IMG/VR virus record: IMGVR_UViG_3300032241_002220
Span: 1-25,375 of that record
Origin: a virus
Reading direction: 5' to 3' (one strand)
DNA: 25,375 nucleotides
Under the pieces are notes generated by a model. It saw nothing but the letters and a program-made list of their open reading frames with translations, did no database searches and was not told the origin of the DNA. Shown here piece after piece: positions 2,605 through 17,860 of this stretch. The first letter of the stretch is position 1. Each line of letters starts with the position of its first letter. Position numbers and translations under genes: made by a program.

Positions 2605-2793
2605 ATGGATACAGTAAAATTAAGATTAGTAATTCAAAACCATTTAAATGATGCCATGGTTGAAATATCTAATAATCCACAAAGAGCACAAATGCGCCTT
2701 TTGTTTGTAAAATCACTTATACACAAATTTCATGATACTTCAATCGAAATTTCAGAAACAGAATTAGATGAAATTTGGGCTGAGGTAAACTAA
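2605..2793 (+). CDS. Hypothetical protein (62 aa)
   Basis: I do not recognise this small, probably all-helical, soluble protein. It has no Cys, signal or membrane segment and ends in an acidic stretch (ETELDEIWAEVN). It lies between two promoters of the same type: one ends about 20 bases upstream of its start, and the -33 box of the next begins two bases after its stop. It can therefore be transcribed alone or with the RadA-like gene that follows. The start follows a leader of A-rich sequence with no Shine-Dalgarno. Confidence 0.7.
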   Translation: MDTVKLRLVIQNHLNDAMVEISNNPQRAQMRLLFVKSLIHKFHDTSIEISETELDEIWAEVN

Positions 2794-2794
2794 A

Positions 2795-2826
2795 TTTGGT
2801 TACCTAAGAAACGGGTCGTATATTTA
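2795..2826 (+). promoter_or_regulatory. Promoter, Bacteroidetes-type (24-bp box offset)
   Basis: TTTGGTTACC at 2795 and TATATTTACG at 2819, exactly 24 bases between box starts, match the Bacteroidetes -33 TTTG / -7 TAnnTTTG pattern except the last base. It lies directly upstream of the RadA-like ATPase gene, with an AAATAAAAAATAAAGG leader. Confidence 0.75.
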
Positions 2827-2849
2827 CGTAAATAAAAAATAAAGGTTAT

Positions 2850-3695
2850 ATGCTTAAAACAGAAAAAAGACGCGGTCGTCCATCATTAAAAAATCAAAAT
2901 ATGCAATTAAACGAACCAAAACGTAGAGGTCGTCCTGCTACTAAATTATTTGTTAGTACATTCAATCCAGATGAAGTAAAACTATTCAGAGGTAGTGATT
3001 TAAGATTTAGTGATGCTTTGTTTCAACCTATGAAAACAAACCGTGAAATAGATACTATATTATCTACAGATGGTGGTTTAATGCCTGGTACAAATATGGT
3101 ATTAGTAGGTGGACCTGGTTCAGGTAAATCAACTGTTGCCTTAGATATGTTAGCTGATTTTACAAATCAAGGTTATAAATGTTTGTTTGTTTCAGCTGAA
3201 ATGGATGAAATCGCTCATTACAAATATTGTAAGCGTATGCCTAAATTTCAAAATGTACAAACATTGTTTTTGAAAAATTATGCTGAAAATATCAAAGAAA
3301 CAATTGAACATGTTTTCAATCAAGGTTATGATGTTATAGCAATCGATTCAATTGCTGAAGTAATTGAAATGTATAAAGATGCTTATCGTACAACTGAATC
3401 TGCTGCCGAATTTTGGTTTTTAAATTTACAAGATCAACATAAAAAAGGTGGTAACGAAAACAGTTATTATACTACATTTATCAACATTCAACAAGTTACT
3501 AAAGCAGGTGATTTTGCCGGTAGTAATAGGTTAAAACACATGACTGATGCTATGTGTCACGTAGAGCGTAATAAAGATGGTTTACAACGTAGCCTATATT
3601 TTAGTAAAAATCGTGATTGTGATAAGGATTTTAAAGTATTTTTTAGTATATTCCAGGATTCAGTTCATTATTCATATGAAACAACTAACGATTAA
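2850..3695 (+). CDS. RadA/RecA-like ATPase with two N-terminal AT-hooks
   Basis: A 281-residue P-loop ATPase of the RecA/RadA/KaiC group. Walker A is GGPGSGKST at residues 87-95 and Walker B is VIAIDS at about 162-167. The segments around IQQVTKAGDFAGSNRLKHMTDAMCHVER resemble the RadA/Sms core, where the family has VTKEG..AGP..LEHMVD. The zinc finger and Lon-like domain of full RadA are absent. The N-terminus carries two AT-hook-like motifs, KRRGRP at residues 6-11 and 24-29, which should bind the minor groove of AT-rich DNA. The likely role is recombination or branch migration linked to phage replication, as UvsX-type proteins have in T4. A replicative-helicase or packaging role cannot be excluded. 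The AT-hook fusion is my observation, and its effect is inferred. Confidence 0.75.
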   Translation: MLKTEKRRGRPSLKNQNMQLNEPKRRGRPATKLFVSTFNPDEVKLFRGSDLRFSDALFQPMKTNREIDTILSTDGGLMPGTNMVLVGGPGSGKSTVALDMLADFTNQGYKCLFVSAEMDEIAHYKYCKRMPKFQNVQTLFLKNYAENIKETIEHVFNQGYDVIAIDSIAEVIEMYKDAYRTTESAAEFWFLNLQDQHKKGGNENSYYTTFINIQQVTKAGDFAGSNRLKHMTDAMCHVERNKDGLQRSLYFSKNRDCDKDFKVFFSIFQDSVHYSYETTND

Positions 3696-4235: not shown

Positions 4236-5033
4236 ATGAATAAAAAAATAAAAGTTTCACATGAAGTTCCTTTTGATTTATTGGATATAAGTGCTGAGTT
4301 CAATGATTACGATTATTGTTTACCTCATTTATTAGACGAAAGTGAACAATATTTAGAATATTTTAAATGGGCTAAAGCAAATGGTCGTTATATTATAATG
4401 GATAATTCACTTCATGAATTAGGTACCGCTTATAATACAGATCGTTTATTATATTGGGTAAATGAGTTAAAACCAAACGAATTCATTATTCCAGATGTTT
4501 GGGAAAATAAAACTCAATCAATCATTAATGCTAGAAAATGGGCTAGTATTCAATTACCTGAAGAAATAACTAAAGTAGCTGTTGTACAATTTAATTTTAT
4601 AACAGATGCTACTGAATGTTACCAAACATATAAAGATCTAGGTTATAAAAAGATAGCATTTTCATATGGTGCTTCTTGCTATAACCTAATTTCATCTCAT
4701 CCAAATAAAGATATGGGTAAAGCATTAGGTAGAATTGAATTAATATCTAAACTTTATAAAAATAGAATAATATCATCAACCGACAGAGTACATTTATTAG
4801 GATGTGCTGTACCACAAGAATTTGGTTGGTATGATGATATGCCTTTTATTGAAAGTATTGATACATCAAATCCAATTATGGCTGCTTTAGAAGGTACAGC
4901 TTATAATTTTGGTTTAAATACTAAACCTAAAATCAATATGAATCAAGCTCAAACTTGGCCTATTGATGAAATTAATTTAGATTTGGTATATCACAATGTT
5001 GATGTTTTTAGATTAATAAACAACTTAAATTAA
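4236..5033 (+). CDS. dpdA: DpdA-like 7-deazaguanine DNA transglycosylase
   Basis: A 265-residue protein of the tRNA-guanine-transglycosylase-like fold. It most resembles phage DpdA, which exchanges guanine in DNA for a 7-deazaguanine base. Features seen: IIMDNSLHELG (residues 53-63, candidate catalytic Asp56), IPDVWEN (85-91), VVQFNF (116-121), VHLLGCAVPQEF (185-196) and SIDTSNPI (207-214, candidate second catalytic Asp209). The Cys-rich zinc site of tRNA Tgt is absent, as expected for short DNA-acting DpdA proteins. Neighbouring QueC-like, QueD, QueE and FolE genes supply the base. I recall that several phage DpdA subfamilies are described, but I cannot assign this one by eye. A tRNA target is the main alternative. 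Confidence 0.8.
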   Translation: MNKKIKVSHEVPFDLLDISAEFNDYDYCLPHLLDESEQYLEYFKWAKANGRYIIMDNSLHELGTAYNTDRLLYWVNELKPNEFIIPDVWENKTQSIINARKWASIQLPEEITKVAVVQFNFITDATECYQTYKDLGYKKIAFSYGASCYNLISSHPNKDMGKALGRIELISKLYKNRIISSTDRVHLLGCAVPQEFGWYDDMPFIESIDTSNPIMAALEGTAYNFGLNTKPKINMNQAQTWPIDEINLDLVYHNVDVFRLINNLN

Positions 5034-5272
5034 ATATAATATGACAGAATTTATTTCACTTTACGATTATTTAGGAAAACCAGCAGGATCTGCTCTAGGT
5101 AAAAAAGTCTACCAGTTTTCACAAATTATAGGGGCTAAAACTAGTTGCAAAAGGATATCCTATTCACCATACAGAGATGGTATTATTATGACCTATGAAA
5201 AGAGCACATTGCAAAAATATTTCGAGGTTGAATCCTTGTTTAAATCATAATTAAATTAAATATAATATGACA
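5025..5272 (+). repeat. 22-bp direct repeat at two start regions
   Basis: Positions 5025-5046 and 5251-5272 are identical over 22 bases. Each copy spans an A/T-rich leader, the start codon and the second codon (ATGACA) of a small gene (5041 and 5267). The proteins are not similar beyond MT, so the copy is of the translation start region, not of the gene. Confidence 0.85.
5041..5250 (+). CDS. Hypothetical protein (69 aa)
   Basis: I do not recognise this small basic protein. It has a single Cys, no membrane segment, and many Tyr and Lys residues in an alternating pattern that suggests a small beta-rich or alpha/beta fold. It starts seven bases after the dpdA-like stop and belongs to the same transcript. 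Its initiation region is an exact copy of the one used by the next small gene. Confidence 0.65.
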   Translation: MTEFISLYDYLGKPAGSALGKKVYQFSQIIGAKTSCKRISYSPYRDGIIMTYEKSTLQKYFEVESLFKS

Positions 5273-5437
5273 AAATTAGATGATATAGTTTTAAAAACTA
5301 AAAAACCACAAGGCAATATTAATCCTGTATTTGAAGAAGAATTAGTAAAAGTATTACAACAAATTTGGGATAACCGATTTAATGTCAGTCATTCTATGTT
5401 AAAAATACTTAAACACGTTGCAAATAAAAAATCTTAA
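5267..5437 (+). CDS. Hypothetical protein (56 aa), upstream of QueC-like gene
   Basis: A short open frame starting MTKLDDIVLK and ending in HVANKKS, bounded by ATG at 5267 and TAA at 5435-5437, directly before the ATG of the QueC-like gene (one base between). The spacing, the shared 22-bp start region and the absence of any other use for this 190-base gap support it being real. The sequence is charged and probably helical (FEEELVKVLQQIW). No family is recognised. Confidence 0.65.
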   Translation: MTKLDDIVLKTKKPQGNINPVFEEELVKVLQQIWDNRFNVSHSMLKILKHVANKKS

Positions 5438-5438
5438 T

Positions 5439-6332
5439 ATGAAAAAACAAGTAGTAATATCATTATCAGGGGGTATGGATTCAAGTACTCTACTCCTACA
5501 TTACCTATCATCCGGTTACCAATGTACTTGTATCTCATTTGATTATGGTCAAAAACATAAAGTTGAATTAGAGCGAGCAACTGAATTAGTACACTATATA
5601 AACAGTAATATATCAAACAATGTTAAACATCAGATTATCAAATTAGATGGTTTAGCTCAATTATTAAATTCATCATTGGTAGAAGGTGGAGAAGATGTTC
5701 CTGAAGGTCACTATGCTGAAGAAAACATGAAAGCAACTGTAGTACCAAATCGCAATAAAATATTTGGTAGTATTGCTCAAGCAATAGCATTATCTATTGC
5801 TACTCAAACAAATAATGAATGTAAAATTGCTTTAGGTATTCATGCTGGAGACCATAGTATTTATCCTGATTGTAGACAAGAGTTTAGAGATGCTGACTAT
5901 AAAGCATTTTTGTTAGGAAATTGGGATTCACATTTAGTAACATACGATGCTCCATTTTTACAAGTTGATAAATTTGATATTTTAAAACATGGATTAGAAT
6001 GTTGTGAGCAATTAGGTTTAGATTTTGATGAAGTATATAAACGTACTAACACAAGTTATAAACCAATTTTAATTGAAACTAAAGCATCTTTAGGAACAAT
6101 AGAATTTGAGCATGGTGGGATAATCCATAAACTCCCACAAGAAGCAACAGTATACAGTGAATGGTACTCTGATTATAAATCAGCATCATCTGTAGAACGA
6201 ATAGAGGCATTTATTAAGTTAGGACGTCCTGATCCTGTAGCATATGCTGATGAAACTGGTCCTGTATCTTGGGAAGTAGCTAAAGCTCATGTTGAACATA
6301 TTTTATCAAATCATTTGGCTATTAAAAACTAA
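5439..6332 (+). CDS. queC: QueC-like ATP-dependent enzyme lacking zinc cysteines
   Basis: A 297-residue PP-loop enzyme of the QueC family, which uses ATP on 7-carboxy-7-deazaguanine (CDG) to form preQ0. The start is the ATG at 5439. SGGMDSS at residues 10-16 is the ATP loop, and FDYGQKHKVE, VVPNRNKIF and YPDCRQEF are QueC signatures. Classical QueC binds zinc through four Cys (TCY and CxxCxxC near the C-terminus). Here they are replaced: TNTSY stands for T.TCY, and SASSVERIEAF for the CxxC-xxR region, and the last ~90 residues have no Cys. An insertion of about 35 residues separates these two segments, so it is longer than the usual ~225 aa. It may be a preQ0 synthase variant or a CDG-converting enzyme with a different product. 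I recall a QueC-related CDG decarboxylase called DpdL but cannot test that match. Confidence 0.85.
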   Translation: MKKQVVISLSGGMDSSTLLLHYLSSGYQCTCISFDYGQKHKVELERATELVHYINSNISNNVKHQIIKLDGLAQLLNSSLVEGGEDVPEGHYAEENMKATVVPNRNKIFGSIAQAIALSIATQTNNECKIALGIHAGDHSIYPDCRQEFRDADYKAFLLGNWDSHLVTYDAPFLQVDKFDILKHGLECCEQLGLDFDEVYKRTNTSYKPILIETKASLGTIEFEHGGIIHKLPQEATVYSEWYSDYKSASSVERIEAFIKLGRPDPVAYADETGPVSWEVAKAHVEHILSNHLAIKN

Positions 6333-6345
6333 TATTGTATATTTA
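6314..6345 (+). promoter_or_regulatory. Promoter, Bacteroidetes-type (24-bp box offset)
   Basis: TTTGGCTATT at 6314 and TATATTTACC at 6338 have exactly 24 bases between starts. The -33 box is within the last codons of the QueC-like gene. The next ATG is only five bases after the -7 box, so transcription would begin at or next to the start codon (possible leaderless mRNA). Confidence 0.75.
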
Positions 6346-6350
6346 CCGGT

Positions 6351-6554
6351 ATGAGAAGAAGAAGAGATTTAGAAACTGAACCTTTTTATGTTGTGTTGAA
6401 TCAACAAGGAGAAGTATTTATAGGACTAAAACAAGGTAGACCTGTATATTCACCTAATTGGAGTGAAGCAAAACCCCTAAATAGCAGCAATACAACAATG
6501 CTTAAATACCTTAATCAAAAAATTGAATTAATTAAAGAAGAAGAATTTATATGA
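6351..6554 (+). CDS. Hypothetical protein (67 aa)
   Basis: A small soluble protein starting with a very basic stretch (MRRRRDLE) and ending acidic (ELIKEEEFI). The middle, FYVVLNQQGEVFIGLKQGRPVYSPNWSEAKPL, looks like a short beta-hairpin domain. No family is recognised. It has its own promoter whose -7 box ends five bases before the ATG, so the mRNA may be leaderless. It is followed by a GIY-YIG gene that begins about 40 bases later. Confidence 0.65.
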   Translation: MRRRRDLETEPFYVVLNQQGEVFIGLKQGRPVYSPNWSEAKPLNSSNTTMLKYLNQKIELIKEEEFI

Positions 6555-6592
6555 TTTTGGTGTGATCCTTGATTTTAATAATATGTATAACC

Positions 6593-7261
6593 ATGGAATA
6601 TACTAAAATATATTATTTACACAATGGTGATAACATACCTTTTTATATAGGGAAAACAAATGGAAATCTTATAGGTAGATTATCTGGTCACAAAATAAGA
6701 TTAAAAACTAATTTTTTAAAAATAGAGTTGATAGATGAAGTTTATGTTAATGAATGGAAATTCTGGGAATCGTGGTATATTGAATTATTTAAATCATGGG
6801 GGTTTAAGTTAGAAAATAAAAATAAAGGAGGGGGTGGTTTGGAATACCATTCTTATTTAACCAAAATTAAAATAAGTAAATCTAAAATAGGAAAACCTAA
6901 TCCTTTCAAAGGTATATCTAAATCAAAAGAATTTGGAGATATGATAAAAAATCATCCAACACGTGGTAAAAAAATAAGCGAATCTAATATGGGTAAAATC
7001 CATTCTAATAGAGGAAAACCATTTACTGAAGAACACAAACAGAAAATTAAATTAACTAGAGATTTTTTAAAAAATAGAAAAAATACATGGCAAAACACTC
7101 CAGTAATCCAATATGATCTTCAAGGTAATTTTATAAAAGAATGGAATTCGCAAAAAGAAGCATCTATTTTTTTAAAAACTAAAGGTGATGGGGTTGGAGC
7201 CTGTTGTAGAGGAAAACAAAAATCTGCTTATGGGTTTATTTGGAAATTTAAAACAAATTAA
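6593..7261 (+). CDS. GIY-YIG homing endonuclease with NUMOD repeats
   Basis: A 222-residue homing endonuclease, start taken at the ATG at 6593 (MEYTKIYYL) rather than an in-frame TTG at 6569. IYYLHNGDNIPFYIGKT gives the GIY and YIG strands, and a conserved WESWYIELFKSWGF holds the expected catalytic Glu. NUMOD3-like pieces follow (KISKSKIGKPNPFKG, GKPFTEEHKQKI) and a C-terminal NUMOD1-type module (IQYDLQGNFIKEW to FIWKFKTN). The last 50 bases around its stop are nearly identical to the end of the third GIY-YIG gene and contain the promoter of the thioredoxin gene. It lies between two intact genes in the modification region. Confidence 0.9.
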   Translation: MEYTKIYYLHNGDNIPFYIGKTNGNLIGRLSGHKIRLKTNFLKIELIDEVYVNEWKFWESWYIELFKSWGFKLENKNKGGGGLEYHSYLTKIKISKSKIGKPNPFKGISKSKEFGDMIKNHPTRGKKISESNMGKIHSNRGKPFTEEHKQKIKLTRDFLKNRKNTWQNTPVIQYDLQGNFIKEWNSQKEASIFLKTKGDGVGACCRGKQKSAYGFIWKFKTN

Positions 7262-7270
7262 TTATATTTA
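7221..7270 (+). repeat. 50-bp endonuclease-tail/promoter repeat, copy 1
   Basis: This segment matches 17820-17869 at about 46 of 50 positions. It covers the last 13 codons of the GIY-YIG gene (AYGFIWKFKTN), the stop codon and the whole -33/-7 promoter that follows. The conservation continues past the stop codon, so it is not explained by protein similarity alone. Confidence 0.85.
7239..7270 (+). promoter_or_regulatory. Promoter embedded in GIY-YIG 3' end
   Basis: TTTGG at 7239 lies within the codons for IWK of the endonuclease, and TATATTTA at 7263 follows its stop, exactly 24 bases apart. It would drive the thioredoxin at 7283 and the genes after it. Confidence 0.75.
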
Positions 7271-7282
7271 AAATAAAAAATT

Positions 7283-7528
7283 ATGAGACAATTATTCTTT
7301 TTTCATGCTTCATGGTGTCAACCGTGTAAAGCCTTTAGTCCTATAATGGACCAAATTTCAAAACAAATCCCCGTGAAAAAAATCAACATCGATTACGAAC
7401 CCGATGTAAACGGTAGATTTAATGTATCTAGTATTCCTACTGTAATACTTGTGGAAAATGAACGAGAAGTTCGTAGATTTGTAGGTGTTAAATCTTACAA
7501 TGAAGTAATGGATTTTATAAAAGGTTAA
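7283..7528 (+). CDS. Thioredoxin/glutaredoxin-like protein
   Basis: An 81-residue minimal thioredoxin-fold protein. HASWCQPCKAF puts the redox pair at Cys12 and Cys15, and SIPTVIL supplies the cis-proline loop near residue 56. It is shorter than host thioredoxin (~105 aa), as usual for phage forms. The likely role is thiol-disulfide exchange, for example feeding a ribonucleotide reductase (none is in this window) or other enzymes. It is encoded four bases before queD and carries a promoter at the end of the upstream GIY-YIG gene. A second thioredoxin lies at 11307. Confidence 0.88.
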   Translation: MRQLFFFHASWCQPCKAFSPIMDQISKQIPVKKINIDYEPDVNGRFNVSSIPTVILVENEREVRRFVGVKSYNEVMDFIKG

Positions 7529-7531
7529 AAT

Positions 7532-8011
7532 ATGGGAAGATACATTTCAACAAAAACATTCGACAATTACTCTGTAGCCATCAGACAATGGAAAGCACAA
7601 CACTCACACTGTCAGCTACTCCACGGTTATGGAATTTATTTTAAAGTATGGTTTGCCTCAAATGAACCAATGGAAGAAAATCAACTAGACGATATGAATT
7701 GGATTGTTGATTTCGGTGGCTTTAAAGCACCACCTAAAGGCAATGGTTTAAAAGACTGGATGGACTATATGTGGGATCATACCTTACTAATTGAAAAAGA
7801 CGATCCGTACCTTGATTTCTTCAAATCAGCCGAAATGGAAGGTTTATGCCATGTTCGAGTAATGGATAAAATGGGATGTGAAAGTCTAGCTAAATTAGTT
7901 TATGACAAATTCAACGATGTATTATCTAAAACAGATGCTGGTCGTTGTAAAGTAATCAAAGTAGAATGCTTTGAACATGGAAAAAATTCATCAATTTATC
8001 AAGAAAATTAA
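7532..8011 (+). CDS. queD: QueD-like 6-carboxytetrahydropterin synthase
   Basis: A 159-residue member of the PTPS/QueD family, which converts dihydroneopterin triphosphate to 6-carboxytetrahydropterin. HSHCQLLHGYGI (residues 24-35) holds the catalytic Cys27 and His31, followed by NWIVDFGGFK, WDHTLL and a C-terminal ECFEHGKNSSIY, matching the order of the family. The canonical zinc-binding HGH is HGY here, and the early AAH motif is missing, so metal binding must use other residues such as H24 or H26. I associate this divergent form with other phage and marine QueD-like proteins. The location between thioredoxin and queE, with folE and the QueC-like gene nearby, supports the assignment. Confidence 0.85.
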   Translation: MGRYISTKTFDNYSVAIRQWKAQHSHCQLLHGYGIYFKVWFASNEPMEENQLDDMNWIVDFGGFKAPPKGNGLKDWMDYMWDHTLLIEKDDPYLDFFKSAEMEGLCHVRVMDKMGCESLAKLVYDKFNDVLSKTDAGRCKVIKVECFEHGKNSSIYQEN

Positions 8012-8017
8012 AATAAT

Positions 8018-8305
8018 ATGTGTGTAGTATCAATGGTCGGAGACCACTATAGTGACAAATGGAAACAACCTCAATGGAATGGAACTATAAGTAATGTAAC
8101 TTATAATCCTTCTCAAGTATCAAAAGAAGATTTTGACGCTTTAAAGAAAGACGTAGAAGAAATGAAAAAACTTCTTGAACGCGCTCTTGATTATGATAAA
8201 CGTAACAACGAACCTAACTGTGAAATGGAAGAAAAAGTAGCATTACTTAAAAAAGTAGCAGAATTGGTTGGTGTTAGCTTAGAAGATATATTTCCTAAAC
8301 AATAA
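8018..8305 (+). CDS. Conserved phage hypothetical protein (95 aa)
   Basis: The N-terminus (MCVVSMVGDHYSDKW) is of a type I recall from other T4-like phage hypothetical proteins. The middle (KEDFDALKKDVEEMKKLLERAL) is a predicted coiled coil, and the C-terminus (VALLKKVAELVGVSLEDIF) is a second helical pair. Function is unknown. It lies between queD and queE and may belong to that pathway, but its occurrence elsewhere suggests a more general role. Confidence 0.7.
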   Translation: MCVVSMVGDHYSDKWKQPQWNGTISNVTYNPSQVSKEDFDALKKDVEEMKKLLERALDYDKRNNEPNCEMEEKVALLKKVAELVGVSLEDIFPKQ

Positions 8306-8543: not shown

Positions 8544-8729
8544 ATGGAAGCTAATATTTCAAAACAAATTATTATGTGCGAGCGTTGTAAAGGCGAAGGT
8601 CAAGAATATAAACGTACTTCTCATTATGATAGCGAATATGTTATTTGTGAAGCCTGTAACGGTTCAGGTAGATTAGTTAAAGAAACAACCGTTAAATATT
8701 ATCCATTTAAAAACAACAATAATGAGTAA
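8544..8729 (+). CDS. DnaJ-type zinc-finger protein (61 aa)
   Basis: Two CxxCxGxG-type motifs, CERCKGEGQ (from residue 12) and CEACNGSGR (from residue 35), form one DnaJ-like zinc ribbon, with no J-domain. Such mini-proteins occur in phages and in DnaJ-like contexts, where the ribbon binds unfolded protein or assists zinc transfer. It overlaps the start of queE by eight bases, so it is translated with it. Whether it helps fold QueE or another partner is unknown. Confidence 0.75.
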   Translation: MEANISKQIIMCERCKGEGQEYKRTSHYDSEYVICEACNGSGRLVKETTVKYYPFKNNNNE

Positions 8730-9555
8730 AATAGATCCAAACAAACTACTTATCAGTAGCGACTTCTACTCAGTACAAGGAGAAGGTATTAGTACAGGTA
8801 TCCCATCTTACTTTATCAGATTAGGTTTATGTAATTTAACTTGTGGTATGAGCAATAAATTCCTCAACCAACTTGTTAAAGACAAAAAACTAGAAGACGG
8901 AGAAATATTTGTAGGTGATCTACAAGCAGAAGGTAAAGCAACTTGGACTTGCGATTCTACATCACAATGGGCCTGGAGAGGTGAAGATAAAGATTTTCAA
9001 TATTTGATTAATCAGTGGAAAGAACAAGGTATCTATGACGATATTTTAAATGGTACAATTCATATTATTTGGACAGGTGGTGAACCTACAATTAAAGGAC
9101 ATCAAGAAGCTATTGTAAATTTTATTCAATATATGTGGGAATGTGATTCATATAATTATACCCCATTTCATGAAATAGAAACAAATGGAACAAACTATAT
9201 TGAAGATGAACTTTTAAAGTCATTAGACCAAATTAACTGCTCCCCAAAATTATCAAATTCAGGTTTATCAGCTAAACAGCGTATTAATCCAGAGGCTATT
9301 AAACGTATAATGCAACATTCTAATTATCAATTTAAATTCGTAATTTCCAATGAAGAAGATGTACAAGAAATATTCCGTGACTTTATCATACCATTTAGCA
9401 TACCTCTTGCCAACGTGGTTTGTATGCCAGGATTAGATGATGCTGCTAATTTTGAAGAACGAACTCGATTTGTTTTGGAGCTTGCCAAAAAATATCGCTT
9501 CCGCGGTCTTACACGACTGCATATAGCTGCATGGAACAAAACATTAAACGTATAG
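8722..9555 (+). CDS. queE: QueE, radical SAM 7-carboxy-7-deazaguanine synthase
   Basis: A 277-residue radical-SAM enzyme that converts 6-carboxytetrahydropterin to 7-carboxy-7-deazaguanine. YSVQGEGISTGIPSYFIRLGLCNLTC is the family N-terminus, and TGGEPTI is the SAM-binding GGEP motif. HEIETNG and NCSPKLSNSG are further QueE signatures. The [4Fe-4S] cysteines are unusually spaced: Cys37, Cys41 and then Cys77 in WTCDS, with 35 residues inserted where most QueE have two (CxWCDT). The inserted loop is charged (KDKKLEDGEIFVGDLQ). The gene overlaps the zinc-finger gene upstream and ends two bases before smpB. Confidence 0.93.
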   Translation: MSKIDPNKLLISSDFYSVQGEGISTGIPSYFIRLGLCNLTCGMSNKFLNQLVKDKKLEDGEIFVGDLQAEGKATWTCDSTSQWAWRGEDKDFQYLINQWKEQGIYDDILNGTIHIIWTGGEPTIKGHQEAIVNFIQYMWECDSYNYTPFHEIETNGTNYIEDELLKSLDQINCSPKLSNSGLSAKQRINPEAIKRIMQHSNYQFKFVISNEEDVQEIFRDFIIPFSIPLANVVCMPGLDDAANFEERTRFVLELAKKYRFRGLTRLHIAAWNKTLNV

Positions 9556-9557
9556 TT

Positions 9558-9992
9558 ATGATACTTCAGAACCGAAAAGCATATTACAATTACCATATAC
9601 TTGAAGAGTATATAGCAGGAATAATGCTAGTTGGTTCTGAAGTTAAATCTATTCGTAACCATGATATTAATTTTAAAGATAGTTATATTTATATCAACAA
9701 CAATGAAGTATTTGTTAAACAAATGTTTATAGGAAAATATAAACAAGCGGTACATACTAATCATGAAGAAGTTAGAGATAGAAAATTATTGTTAACTAGA
9801 AAACAAATACGAAACATTCAAAAACAGCTTCAAGTAACAGGTATTACATCTGTACCTTTAGAAATATTTGAAATGAGTGGTAAATTTAAAATTAAAATAG
9901 CAATAGCTAAAGGTAAAAAATTATATGATAAACGTGATGTTATCAAAGAAAAAGATATCAAATTACAAACCCAAAGAGAACTTATAAAATAA
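9558..9992 (+). CDS. smpB: SmpB, tmRNA-binding trans-translation protein
   Basis: A 144-residue SmpB homologue, the protein that carries tmRNA to stalled ribosomes. Recognised stretches are NRKAYYNYHILEEYIAGIML, GSEVKSIRNHDINFKDSYI, RDRKLLLTRKQI and KIKIAIAKGKKLYDKRDVIKEKD, in the same order as bacterial SmpB. The C-terminal tail that folds in the decoding centre is present but short. The start is the ATG at 9558, two bases after queE; an in-frame ATG at 9531 inside queE adds nine non-family residues. No tmRNA gene fits in the gene-free gaps of this window. SmpB in a phage may supply host trans-translation or act otherwise. Confidence 0.9.
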   Translation: MILQNRKAYYNYHILEEYIAGIMLVGSEVKSIRNHDINFKDSYIYINNNEVFVKQMFIGKYKQAVHTNHEEVRDRKLLLTRKQIRNIQKQLQVTGITSVPLEIFEMSGKFKIKIAIAKGKKLYDKRDVIKEKDIKLQTQRELIK

Positions 9993-10004
9993 TTATCTAT
10001 CATC

Positions 10005-10667
10005 ATGGATACAAAACCTTATATTTTTAATATTGAATATCAGAACGGACTTCGTATTTCATGTCATGACATAATTAATCCTGATACTGAATTTTGGATT
10101 CGTGTTTATATTAAAGCTCAAAATAGAAATAAAAAATTAATTTGGGAATCTAATAACTCAGGAGGAGCTATTGTAGATGAAATTATTATGAATAATGAAT
10201 CATTTAATATTCCTTTTTTAGAAACATCTATAAAAAATCATCATTTTACAGATTTCTTTTATAAAGGATTTGTTTCATATAATATTGAAATTACTAAACG
10301 TTATACTGAAGAAATAATATATTCTGAATCATTTGATTGTCGTTATAAATTAGTTAATTTTACTTTACATAGTAATGATATTAAAGAATTACATACTTGG
10401 ATGTGTGCTATTAAAAAGTTTAAAGATGAAACTAATTGTGAAATATCAATAATAAATGATTGGATATGGGAAAACAAAGAATATGATTTTGTAGACGCTT
10501 ATTATCGTTTTAAAGATAATTTTAACCAATATTATGCTGGTTATGTTATAGGACGATTTGGTGATGAAAACGCTCCTGATTTTTATAGAAATCCGGATGG
10601 GTTAAAAAACAAAACATCATTAGACATTATTGAAGATATTTTATACCATTTTACTAAGAAATTATGA
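10005..10667 (+). CDS. Hypothetical protein (220 aa)
   Basis: I do not recognise this soluble protein. The first half looks beta-rich with aromatic residues (EFWIRVYIKAQNRNKKLIWES), the second half helical (IKELHTWMCAIKKFKDE, DIIEDILYHFTKKL). There is no signal or membrane segment. The stop overlaps the start of the next gene (ATGA), so the two are probably made together. The mixture of a beta-sandwich-like N-terminal part and a gene paired with a possible glycosyltransferase suggests a carbohydrate-related role, but that is inference. Confidence 0.7.
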   Translation: MDTKPYIFNIEYQNGLRISCHDIINPDTEFWIRVYIKAQNRNKKLIWESNNSGGAIVDEIIMNNESFNIPFLETSIKNHHFTDFFYKGFVSYNIEITKRYTEEIIYSESFDCRYKLVNFTLHSNDIKELHTWMCAIKKFKDETNCEISIINDWIWENKEYDFVDAYYRFKDNFNQYYAGYVIGRFGDENAPDFYRNPDGLKNKTSLDIIEDILYHFTKKL

Positions 10668-11314
10668 ATAATGTTTTAATGATAATGAATGCTCGAAACA
10701 TAGCCCCTTTTAAGGAATGTGTTGATAAATTAAACATTAATAAAGTTTGGTTTAAAGGTTATACTGAATTTGAACTAAATACACATATTAACAAATTTAT
10801 TCAGGAAACAAGTTATGATAATTATTTTTTAGCACCTGATGATTTATTAATTAAAAAACATCATTTTGAATTGTTAGAAAGAAAATTACAACATCATGAT
10901 ATAGTTACTGGTTGGGGTGTTTGGAGACAAAATTATAATTGGACTACAATTTATAAAAAAGATAAATTACACGTGTATTGTCAAGGATCATCATTACCGT
11001 TATTTAAAAAACATTACAACGTAGTTTATACACATGAAATAGACTCCATGCCAAACGAAATAGAAACCGCTTTTACCGGCTGGTTCTATACAGGAGCCAA
11101 ACGCCAAGTATGGTTAGATTATCCTTACCAAACCATTTCAGTAAGTAAAGAACAAAATGTTGCTTCAACAGATTTACATTGGTCTAAAAGAATATTGGAA
11201 GATAAAAAATATAAGCAAATATGTATTAAAGACGCTAGGGTAACTCATATTTCATATATTGGACATGATTACCTGGATTTAAAATTTGATACTAAAGAAA
11301 TCATATATGAATAA
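10664..11314 (+). CDS. Hypothetical protein, possible GT-A glycosyltransferase
   Basis: A 216-residue protein. The pattern is suggestive of a GT-A nucleotide-sugar transferase: an initial beta strand (NVLMIMNARN), a candidate acidic motif (NYFLAPDDLLI, with DD), a TGWFYTG segment, and a late STDLHWSKRILEDKKYKQICIKDARVTHISY resembling the end of such domains. No diagnostic motif is conclusive, so the call is weak. It overlaps the previous gene by four bases and the thioredoxin gene by eight. If real, it could act on modified DNA or on host surface sugars. Confidence 0.5.
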   Translation: MNNVLMIMNARNIAPFKECVDKLNINKVWFKGYTEFELNTHINKFIQETSYDNYFLAPDDLLIKKHHFELLERKLQHHDIVTGWGVWRQNYNWTTIYKKDKLHVYCQGSSLPLFKKHYNVVYTHEIDSMPNEIETAFTGWFYTGAKRQVWLDYPYQTISVSKEQNVASTDLHWSKRILEDKKYKQICIKDARVTHISYIGHDYLDLKFDTKEIIYE

Positions 11315-13644: not shown

Positions 13645-16239
13645 ATGTATCAAGCAATTTATTTTGACAGGGAAGAAAAACAATATTATCTTAGAGATGA
13701 TGAAAAAGGATGGAAATCATTTCAATATTGGCCCACTTACTATTATCCAGACGAAGATGGTGAATTTGAAACATTGGATGGTAACAGAGTAAGCCCTGTT
13801 AAAAGAATAAAAGATTGGAATGACACCAACTATTATGAAAAAGATGTAGACAAATGTACACGATTGCTTGTTGATTATTATTATGAATCTGATGAAACCC
13901 CAAATCATCACAATATTATTTACTTAGATATTGAGTGTGAAATAGCAGGAGCGTTAACTGAAGATAGTATTAAAAACGCTCCTACTAAAATCACATCTGT
14001 TGCTTTATATGATAATAACAGTAAAAAATATTACTGTTTGATTCTAGATGAAGCAAAATTAATGAAGAAAGTAAATGATAAAAGTAAAGAAGTAATTCCT
14101 TATCATAATGAAAAAGAATTACTTGATGGTTTCCTAGACATTTGGATTGATTTAGACCCAACCATTATTACAGGATGGAATAGTGGATTTTTTGATATTC
14201 CTTATTTATATTATCGCATTAGTAAAGTATTGGGAGAATCAAAAGCCAATATGCTATCACCATTAGGTAAAGTACATTTTACACCCCAATTTCCAGAACA
14301 ACCCGTTAATTTAGCAGGTATTAATCACCTAGATTATATGTTGTTGTTTAAGAAATTTATTACTAAACAGGAACCAAGTTATCGTTTAGGTGATATAGGT
14401 ACAAAATATGTTAATTTAGGTAAAATTGATTATAAAGGTTCATTGGATAAATTATTTAAAGAAGACGTAAATAAGTTTATTGAATATAATATTCGTGACG
14501 TTGAAATTATTGTTGAATTAGAAAAAAGTCAAAAATTTATTGATTTAACAGTAGCTATTGCTCACTTATGTCATACAGAATATGAACAAATTTATTTTTC
14601 AACAATGTTAAATGAAGGAGCAATTTTAACCTATTTAAAACGTAGAGGTATTGTTTCTCCAAATAAACCAACAACTTATAATCCTGCCTTAAAAGAATTA
14701 AAAGAAGAATATGCCGGTGGATATTTAAAAGATCCGGTTCCTGGTTTATACGAGTGGGTTATTGATCTAGATTTTACATCACTGTATCCTTCAATTATTC
14801 GTTCTTTAAACATGGGAATTGAAACATTAGTAGGACGTGTTGTAAATAAAGGTAAATTTGATAATCAATGGTCTCTTAAGGAATTAAAGGAAATGAATCC
14901 TGAAACTATTGTTACTGTTGAAAAAGTAAAAAAAGACAAACGATTATCTCAAGCTCAAATTTCTATAGGTAAATTAATTGAATTAATAGAAGAAAATAAT
15001 CTATTAATATCAGCACCTGGTGTTATGTTCCGTAAGGATAAAGCAAGTGTGGTTTGTGAAATTTTATCTGATTGGTTTGATAAACGTCAAGAGTATAAAA
15101 AATTGATGAGAAAAGCATTTAAAGAAGATAAAGATCCGGTTATGGGTGAATTTTACAATCGCCAACAACACGCATATAAAATTAAATTAAACGACGTCTA
15201 TGGTGTATTCGCGATAAATGGTTGGAGATATACAGACGGAAATAAATTCATTTCTAAAGCGATTACTTTAACAGGTCAACGTTTAATCCAAGAATCCATT
15301 AAATTTACAAATAATTGGATGAATGAACAGTTAGGCACTGATGGTAAAGATTATATTGTAACCTCTGATACCGACTCATTATTTATTCAAGTTAAAGACC
15401 TAATACTACAACGCAACCCAGAATTAAAAGGTGCTAGTCGTGAAGAAATTACTGCTGAAGTATTAAAAGTGGCTACTGAAATACAAAAATTAGCAAATGC
15501 TCATCTTCATGTTTTGGTTAAGGAATTATTTAATGTTGATTATCCTAATGAGCCTCATTATTTTGAATTAAAACAAGAAGTTGTACTTGAACGAGGTTAT
15601 TTTTCAGGTAAAAGAAGATACGCTCAATTTATAGTAAATAAAGAAGGTGTACCTGTAGAAGAATTAGATATGAAAGGTTTAGATTTGATGAAATCTAATT
15701 TCCCACCATTGTTTAAAAACTTTGGAGAACATATCCTTAAGGAATTAATGTTTGGTAAAACTAAATCTTCTATTGATAAACAAATACTTGATTTTAGAAC
15801 ATCGCTACGAACCGTAGAATGGGAAAAAATACTTAAACCAACAGGTTTAAAACATTTAGAAGGTTATATTGCTCGAGGTCCTGGAGCTGGTGAAATATTT
15901 TCAAAATTAGCATTAAAGTGTCCTATTAATACTAAAGCAGCAATTTATTTTAATGATTTGGTTCGTTTTAAAAAGCTAGACAAAAAATACCCTACATTTC
16001 AAATTGGTGATAAAATGTTTATAGCTTATTTAAAAGAAAATCCATATAAAATAGATGTTATAGGATTTAACGGATATAATGATCCTCCAGAAATAATGGA
16101 ATTTATTGAAAAATATATTGACCGTGATGGTATATTTGAATCTGTTATGAAGAATAAATTAGAATCGGTTTATGCTGATTTAGGGTGGGGTTCACCTGTA
16201 TTTAACAATAATGTAAGTAAGTTTTTTACATTTGGCTAA
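13645..16239 (+). CDS. DNA polymerase, family B (T4 gp43-like)
   Basis: An 864-residue replicative DNA polymerase of the T4 gp43 type with 3'-5' proofreading. Exonuclease motifs: YLDIECE with D95 and E97, TGWNSGFFDIPYL with D184, and YNIRDVEI with Y281 and D285. Polymerase motifs: DLDFTSLYPS with D376, KLNDVYG at 514-520, and SDTDSLFI with D575 and D577. GKRRYA stands for the KKRY motif. All catalytic acids are intact. The clamp gene follows immediately and the clamp loader about 4 kb later, the T4 replisome set. The last codons carry an inverted repeat and the next promoter's -33 box. Confidence 0.97.
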   Translation: MYQAIYFDREEKQYYLRDDEKGWKSFQYWPTYYYPDEDGEFETLDGNRVSPVKRIKDWNDTNYYEKDVDKCTRLLVDYYYESDETPNHHNIIYLDIECEIAGALTEDSIKNAPTKITSVALYDNNSKKYYCLILDEAKLMKKVNDKSKEVIPYHNEKELLDGFLDIWIDLDPTIITGWNSGFFDIPYLYYRISKVLGESKANMLSPLGKVHFTPQFPEQPVNLAGINHLDYMLLFKKFITKQEPSYRLGDIGTKYVNLGKIDYKGSLDKLFKEDVNKFIEYNIRDVEIIVELEKSQKFIDLTVAIAHLCHTEYEQIYFSTMLNEGAILTYLKRRGIVSPNKPTTYNPALKELKEEYAGGYLKDPVPGLYEWVIDLDFTSLYPSIIRSLNMGIETLVGRVVNKGKFDNQWSLKELKEMNPETIVTVEKVKKDKRLSQAQISIGKLIELIEENNLLISAPGVMFRKDKASVVCEILSDWFDKRQEYKKLMRKAFKEDKDPVMGEFYNRQQHAYKIKLNDVYGVFAINGWRYTDGNKFISKAITLTGQRLIQESIKFTNNWMNEQLGTDGKDYIVTSDTDSLFIQVKDLILQRNPELKGASREEITAEVLKVATEIQKLANAHLHVLVKELFNVDYPNEPHYFELKQEVVLERGYFSGKRRYAQFIVNKEGVPVEELDMKGLDLMKSNFPPLFKNFGEHILKELMFGKTKSSIDKQILDFRTSLRTVEWEKILKPTGLKHLEGYIARGPGAGEIFSKLALKCPINTKAAIYFNDLVRFKKLDKKYPTFQIGDKMFIAYLKENPYKIDVIGFNGYNDPPEIMEFIEKYIDRDGIFESVMKNKLESVYADLGWGSPVFNNNVSKFFTFG

Positions 16240-17055: not shown

Positions 17056-17220
17056 ATGAAACAACAAACTAAAGCAATTCAAATTGATGTTAAAATTCAC
17101 AAACAACTAAAAAAACATTGTGATGATAATGGTTTAAAAATGCAAAAGTTAGTTGAAAAAATAATTATAAATGAGATAGAACATGATAGGGATTTACAAA
17201 ATAATAAACCCCAAAGATAA
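17056..17220 (+). CDS. Small ribbon-helix-helix protein (54 aa)
   Basis: An ATG at 17056 opens a 54-residue frame ending at TAA 17218-17220. KAIQIDVKIHKQLKKHCDDNGLKMQKLVEKIIINEI has the ribbon-helix-helix pattern: a beta strand with alternating residues, then two helices, as in Arc/CopG-type DNA-binding proteins. The C-terminal 14 residues (HDRDLQNNKPQR) are encoded by sequence shared with the start of the GIY-YIG gene, which overlaps by 38 bases. It is distantly like the RHH protein at 23881. It may be a small phage regulator. Confidence 0.7.
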   Translation: MKQQTKAIQIDVKIHKQLKKHCDDNGLKMQKLVEKIIINEIEHDRDLQNNKPQR

Positions 17221-17860
17221 AATTTATATTGGACAAACAGTAAATTGGGATAGAAGAAAAAAAGATTATAAAATTTTAAGATGTAAAGGTCAAATAAAAT
17301 TATATAATTCATTTAAAAAATATGGGATTGAAAATCATATATTTGAAATTATAGAAGAATGTTCTGTTGAAGATCTTAATAAAAAAGAAAGATATTGGCA
17401 AGATTTTCACAATGTTTTAGAAAATGGTCTTAATTGTAGATTAACAACCTCTGAAGATAAAAGTGGTTTTCTTTCTGAAGAAACAAAATTAAAAATGAGA
17501 GGAAAAAAACAAAGTAATGACCATAAACAAAAACTTGGTAAAAGTAGAAAAGGAAAAAAAAGAACAGAAGAAACAAAACAAAAAATGATTAATTCAAGTT
17601 ACATTAAAGGAAAAAAAAGAACAGAAGAAACAAAACAAAAAATAAGCAAAACTCATTTAAAACTTAAAATTACTAGATTCAATAAACATCTTAATAAACC
17701 TATTATTCAATATAATAAACAAGGTATTTTTATTAAAGAATGGATCAACGCTACAGAAGCGGCTAAAAATTTAAATAAAGCAAGTGTTGCCATTTCTGAG
17801 TGTTGTAATGAAAAAAGAAAATCAGCTTATGGGTTTGTTTGGAAATTTAAAACAAATTAG
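17183..17860 (+). CDS. GIY-YIG homing endonuclease with NUMOD repeats
   Basis: A 225-residue homing endonuclease. MIGIYKIINPKDKIYIGQT gives textbook GIY and YIG strands, and ERYWQDFHNVLENGLNC carries the family glutamate. NUMOD3-like repeats KGKKRTEETKQKM and KGKKRTEETKQKI occur in tandem, encoded by nearly identical DNA at about 17548-17586 and 17608-17645. The C-terminal NUMOD1 module (IQYNKQGIFIKEW to FVWKFKTN) is shared with the other two. It starts inside the RHH gene and ends 20 bases before groES, with a promoter at its 3' end. Confidence 0.93.
   Translation: MIGIYKIINPKDKIYIGQTVNWDRRKKDYKILRCKGQIKLYNSFKKYGIENHIFEIIEECSVEDLNKKERYWQDFHNVLENGLNCRLTTSEDKSGFLSEETKLKMRGKKQSNDHKQKLGKSRKGKKRTEETKQKMINSSYIKGKKRTEETKQKISKTHLKLKITRFNKHLNKPIIQYNKQGIFIKEWINATEAAKNLNKASVAISECCNEKRKSAYGFVWKFKTN

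Follow-up and report, generated by a model that had tools for sequence, protein, structure and literature searches.

The DNA stretch analysed here (hereafter the window) is 25,375 nucleotides long and corresponds to bases 1-25375 of a viral record of 89,375 bases. On its plus strand, an intact open reading frame at 9558..9992 was found to encode a phage SsrA-binding protein, SmpB (144 amino acids plus a stop codon). A clear SmpB had been claimed at this position in a sequence-only reading, and the claim was borne out by profile searches. The protein matched PF01668 over its full length with 166 bits in the Pfam profile search (5.3e-49; cut-off 27) and exceeded the cut-offs of both NCBIfam equivalogs, NF003843 and TIGR00086 (171.9 and 162 versus 130 and 119.1). 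Its best match in the PDB was 1p6v (2.7e-33), the SmpB of Aquifex. The immediate upstream neighbour is a queE-like radical SAM gene on the same strand (8722..9555); its stop codon ends at 9555, leaving the gap of two bases that the same reading had described. The QueE assignment was supported by a match to PHROG 2076 (QueE-like radical SAM), and a Pfam search of this protein was without match. Close relatives share the gene order queE-smpB-folE (L006, L008-L012; partly in L045), and a thioredoxin-like gene lies upstream in several distant members of the phage SmpB clade. Between smpB and a second thioredoxin-like gene, two open reading frames (window 10005-11314) are without counterpart in L006 and L008-L011.

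Loss of key tmRNA-contacting residues, which the sequence-only reading had named as the refuting outcome, was not observed: most positions through which SmpB contacts tmRNA and the decoding centre are kept, among them the tail motifs KGKK and DKR. Using residue roles taken from PMC8363625 and PMC4151336, the alignment indicated that the phage protein retains, in E. coli numbering, Y24, Y55, L90-L92 (the LLL patch), G132, K134, D137-K138-R139, K143, and R153. The changes relative to E. coli were H22Y, W122K, H136Y, R145K, and I154-M155 to EL. At H22, W122, R145, and I154-M155, the aligned proteins of Bacteroidota also depart from the E. coli residues, and Tyr at position 136 is found in Thermus, this position being broadly conserved as aromatic. 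The C-terminal tail of the protein (KGKKLYDKRDVIKEKDIKLQTQRELIK; part of 9558..9992) had been described as short, a view that the alignment contradicts: counted from KGKK, it comprises 27 residues, compared with 26 for Spirosoma and 30 for E. coli, and is long enough for entry into the mRNA channel. Judged from this alignment, the tail length is normal for Bacteroidota. In comparisons with relatives sharing 97% and 87% identity, the dN/dS ratios of smpB were 0.10 and 0.14, indicating that the phage gene is under purifying selection.

The sequence-only reading had presented this SmpB as one without a tmRNA in the window. Within the 25,375 nucleotides, no tmRNA was detected by ARAGORN or Rfam, and to this extent the statement stands; the puzzle that it implied is gone, because a complete tmRNA is located outside the window at record bases 73,428-73,823, on the same (plus) strand and about 63 kb downstream of smpB. 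It was detected by the whole-record search that the reading had proposed, with 100.1 bits against RF00023 (cut-off 47) over model positions 1-374 of the covariance model, and was also called by ARAGORN. The tmRNA directly follows an RNase H-like gene; about 20 tRNA genes lie upstream of it, and a terminator-like hairpin comes after it. A TROVE-domain (Ro60-like) protein is encoded after the tRNA array and before the tmRNA (record about 70,624-72,165; L005:6625-8166). The acceptor stem, GGGGUCG/CGACUCC, forms all 7 of 7 pairs including G3:U70, and the T stem 5 of 5 pairs. The stretch after the tag frame (pseudoknot region) aligned weakly to RF00023 with low posterior values, and the folding tool used makes no pseudoknot prediction. 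Assembly contamination as the source of the tmRNA was rejected, since a 95% identical core is found in the tRNA array of close relatives, on three separate metagenome contigs.

Among 92 viral tmRNAs called by ARAGORN, the acceptor was readable in 86; all 86 carried G3:U70 and formed 6 or all 7 of the acceptor pairs, with 19 distinct acceptor stems, and 85 had a complete T stem. These intact stems support function, but not independently, because the rules of ARAGORN may favour such stems. In one close relative, of which the tRNA-RNase H block is about 98% identical, the tmRNA is located elsewhere, inside the tRNA array; its tag core is 95% identical and its tRNA-like domain is wholly different. 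Such relocated tmRNAs with another tRNA-like domain were found at L117:685-1083, L119:221-619, and L121:1750-2148. The combination of a nearly identical core with a wholly different tRNA-like domain suggests that tmRNA halves have been exchanged by recombination. The tmRNA 5' ends were also considered for an association of D-loop sequence with the presence of SmpB, which was dropped because the picture was mixed. In a related viral contig, a GOLLD RNA was detected (L124:3418-3844; RF02032, 239 bits).

The tag frame of the tmRNA lies at record bases 73,524-73,601 on the plus strand and was aligned with those of relatives. Starting from a GCA resume codon, it comprises 25 codons that encode ANVELSTWTIEDALAFVDGEFALAA (approximately 25 residues) with the terminal sequence FALAA, followed by the stop codon TAG. 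The tag first given by ARAGORN, EDALAFVDGEFALAA, was replaced by this sequence on the basis of the resume context AAUAAAC-GCA-AAC, in agreement with the relatives. Related viral tags include AKVELSTWTVEDALAFVDGEYAVAA, AEELSSFTFEDAMAFVGADYAVAA, and others, and the family consensus was (A/D)xELS(T/S)(M/F/W)TF(E/D)D(A/L)MAFVGADYAVAA, with ELSTWTIEDALAFVDG as the internal block. With a degenerate pattern at the DNA level, built for T(F/I)(E/D)Dx(M/L)AFV, at least 119 viral stretches were detected. In all 80 stretches that were read, the motif was in frame; the typical AA terminus was present in 73, the rest being close variants or tags ended by the contig end, and ARAGORN confirmed a tmRNA at most of the 80. 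The same pattern was found in 0 of 395 Bacteroidota and 0 of 292 Cyanobacteria-phylum genomes (687 in all), other phyla being barely sampled. A tblastn search of the tag against the phage collection gave no match, 24 residues being a short query for tblastn; a 22-base pattern matching the tag exactly gave no viral contigs; and the tag strings were not found in the literature text searched, where sequences are rarely printed. A second viral family of long tags, GNVYNNME(V/I)(A/S)G(L/I)LA(T/S)S(K/N)VA(V)A, was observed in L272, L275-L277, L285, and L286.

To examine the mode of selection on the tag, pN/pS was computed outside the positions fixed by the search pattern. In the tag frame, the ratio was 0.53 upstream and 0.65 downstream of the motif, compared with 1.28 and 4.87 (upstream) and 2.02 and 0.88 (downstream) in the alternative frames; the downstream contrast, 0.65 versus 0.88, is modest. 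In addition, a Ser residue located three codons ahead of the motif never varies among 27 distinct sequences, and four codons are used for it. The lower in-frame ratios and the invariant Ser together point to selection on the tag as a peptide, not only as RNA. The tags of Bacteroidota, of which GENNYALAA is an ordinary example, are 9-10 residues long in 29 of 30 genomes, the thirtieth resembling a mis-call. As bacterial tags of 8-35 residues are known (PMC8012679), a length of 25 residues stands out in the probable host group without being unprecedented. The viral tags occur beside many different genes, and no consistent neighbour, as a candidate for a tag adaptor, was shared across 81 tmRNA loci.

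A tree was constructed from 62 phage and 80 bacterial SmpB proteins, in which the deep branches are uncertain because of the few alignment columns and some viral contigs may represent prophage flank. The present SmpB falls in a clade of 21 proteins, all from phages (support 97/82), including those of the huge phages LR745206 (635 kb) and LR756502 (642 kb). As this clade is all phage, the gene does not appear to be a recent acquisition from a host. The phage label requires at least seven changes on well-supported branches of the tree, and SmpB was thus probably captured several times by phages. The present protein is 40-49% identical to Bacteroidota proteins, with those of Cytophagales as the nearest bacterial SmpBs, and a Shine-Dalgarno-like core was found upstream of 0 of 33 genes in the window. 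Missing Shine-Dalgarno cores are typical of Bacteroidota. From the nearest bacterial SmpBs and the missing cores, the phage probably infects a member of Bacteroidota. By DNA polymerase, a phage of Microcystis is the closest isolate (35% identity). The PolB gene (window 13645-16239) is a single open reading frame here versus two adjacent ones in L006 and L009-L011, and two related open reading frames (window 6569-7261 and 17183-17860) resemble by eye GIY-YIG homing endonucleases.

The statement that lytic phages seldom carry SmpB proved to be roughly right, as 67 of 50,697 phage records matched. Among the matches listed were host flanks at prophage ends, bacterial-looking fragments, and huge phages. 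The 'SmpB' records of Staphylococcus, Escherichia, and Acinetobacter prophages were set aside as host flank where the gene lies at the record end, as in KC595279 (SmpB at 37-459). A tmRNA above the cut-off was detected in 16 of 50 SmpB-bearing IMG/VR records, in 10 of the 14 with a length of at least 200 kb, and also together with SmpB in Lak-A2, Lak-B5, Lak-C1, and LR756504. Missing tmRNA calls are weak evidence, since the covariance model scored the divergent tmRNA of LR756502 too low. This tmRNA, near 232 kb of the 642-kb phage genome (L412, about 2700-3090), has a T loop of non-canonical type and carries a long tag with GDLAVA at its end. When 36 related records, most of them fragments, were sampled via the RNase H-like neighbour as a third gene, tmRNA above the cut-off was found in 25 and SmpB in 3, indicating that tmRNA is the commoner part and that SmpB was added in some lineages. 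In the usual case, phage tmRNAs thus seem to depend on the SmpB of the host, and a phage SmpB does not seem to be obligatory.

Besides its tRNAs and queuosine genes, the record encodes the TROVE protein, a PHA02142-type RNA ligase, and NAPRTase-family and PRPP-synthetase-like proteins. At L446:3713-4546, 5033-6577, and 7038-8174, the PRPP-synthetase-like and NAPRTase-family genes were observed close together (possible NAD salvage), along with the PHA02142-type RNA ligase. The tRNAs and these genes, a grouping that is interpretive, suggest an investment in working RNA and translation during infection.

The sequence contains both genes, the functional residues and purifying selection of SmpB, the paired acceptor and T stems of the tmRNA with G3:U70, and a tag frame with its stop codon and with selection acting on the peptide. 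On these grounds, we consider it likely that the phage encodes its own trans-translation system, in which SmpB and tmRNA would free stalled ribosomes and add a tag of 25 residues. If expressed during infection, the phage SmpB is predicted to bind the phage tmRNA, and possibly the host tmRNA as well, and the host AlaRS would charge the phage tmRNA with alanine. The complex would then enter ribosomes stalled on broken or stopless mRNA, the SmpB tail would read the empty mRNA channel, and translation would move to the tmRNA frame. The unfinished protein would receive the 25-residue tag with its terminal ClpX-type FALAA degron, leading to its degradation, and the ribosome would be released. The presumed benefit is that ribosomes stay available while host and phage mRNAs are cleaved. 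Among the three roles offered by the sequence-only reading, pairing with a phage tmRNA elsewhere is the one supported, by the complete tmRNA in the record and by the contact residues kept; a boost of host trans-translation, though possible, need no longer serve as the leading explanation. The two genes do not form one operon, as they lie 63 kb apart; the record is incomplete.

This distance, the generic contact surfaces of SmpB, and the frequent tmRNA without SmpB in related records (25 versus 3 of 36) would also suit a looser arrangement, in which SmpB mainly supplements the host SmpB/tmRNA pool and the phage tmRNA, acquired separately, uses any SmpB present. We regard this arrangement as rather unlikely, as a complete phage tmRNA resides in the same genome and the SmpB belongs to a long-lived phage lineage. 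Interference of the phage pair with host trans-translation, for example by titration of its components or by marking of host proteins for amino-acid recycling, has precedents in two reports: recycling was proposed for phage Melnitz (PMC9004378), and phage DS6A carries a TLD-only tmRNA, a similar molecule being inhibitory to tmRNA (PMC4131195). Here, however, the tmRNA retains, intact and conserved, an mRNA-like part with tag frame, stop codon, and terminal degron, none of which a mere inhibitor would require; interference is accordingly judged improbable. Least probable is that SmpB is a passenger or acts independently of tmRNA, for example in gene regulation. A study in Aeromonas has claimed that SmpB acts in regulation (PMC7270562), and queE-smpB-folE look co-transcribed with metabolic genes, but the purifying selection, the retained decoding-centre residues, and the co-resident tmRNA argue against this role.

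What had appeared as a phage SmpB without partner may accordingly be viewed as one half of a two-part viral ribosome-rescue system, open to reconstitution and bearing on how phages maintain translation while mRNA and tRNA are cut. Within the preferred self-encoded system, the longer tag is most likely to provide a second recognition or protease-engagement element ahead of the ordinary terminal degron. As a tentative proposal, which we hold to be possible and less probable than its opposite, large phages that probably infect Bacteroidota share a virus-specific tag family, the internal block of which would be read by a protease, adaptor, or receptor distinct from that for the 9-10-residue host tag. 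If true, proteins rescued by the viral system would be sorted apart from host-tagged proteins. The conserved long tag raises the question of what viruses gain from a degradation tag unlike that of the host, and would be suited for dissection of protease adaptors in Bacteroidota.

Huge phages with both tmRNA and SmpB have already been reported, in one sentence of Al-Shayeb et al. (Nature 2020, PMC7162821). The present phage resembles them as a tailed phage type with many tRNAs, a tmRNA, and SmpB; its record of 89 kb probably represents a fragment of the genome, the huge-phage class being set at more than 200 kb, and the available part of that report gives no tag sequences. With the tmRNA-SmpB system of Bacteroidota, the present pair shares the SmpB similarity described above, a similar tail length, and the degron end -AA, whereas the bacterial tags lack the length of the phage tag and its extra internal block. 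Phage-borne ssrA is also known from Melnitz, mycobacteriophage Bxz1, and Bacillus phage G; SmpB is not reported for them in the available parts of these papers (PMC9004378, PMC4131195), and the tmRNA of Melnitz is of the two-piece type (PMC9004378). By these comparisons, the pairing of phage SmpB with tmRNA is already known, and the new part looks to be the conserved long viral tag.
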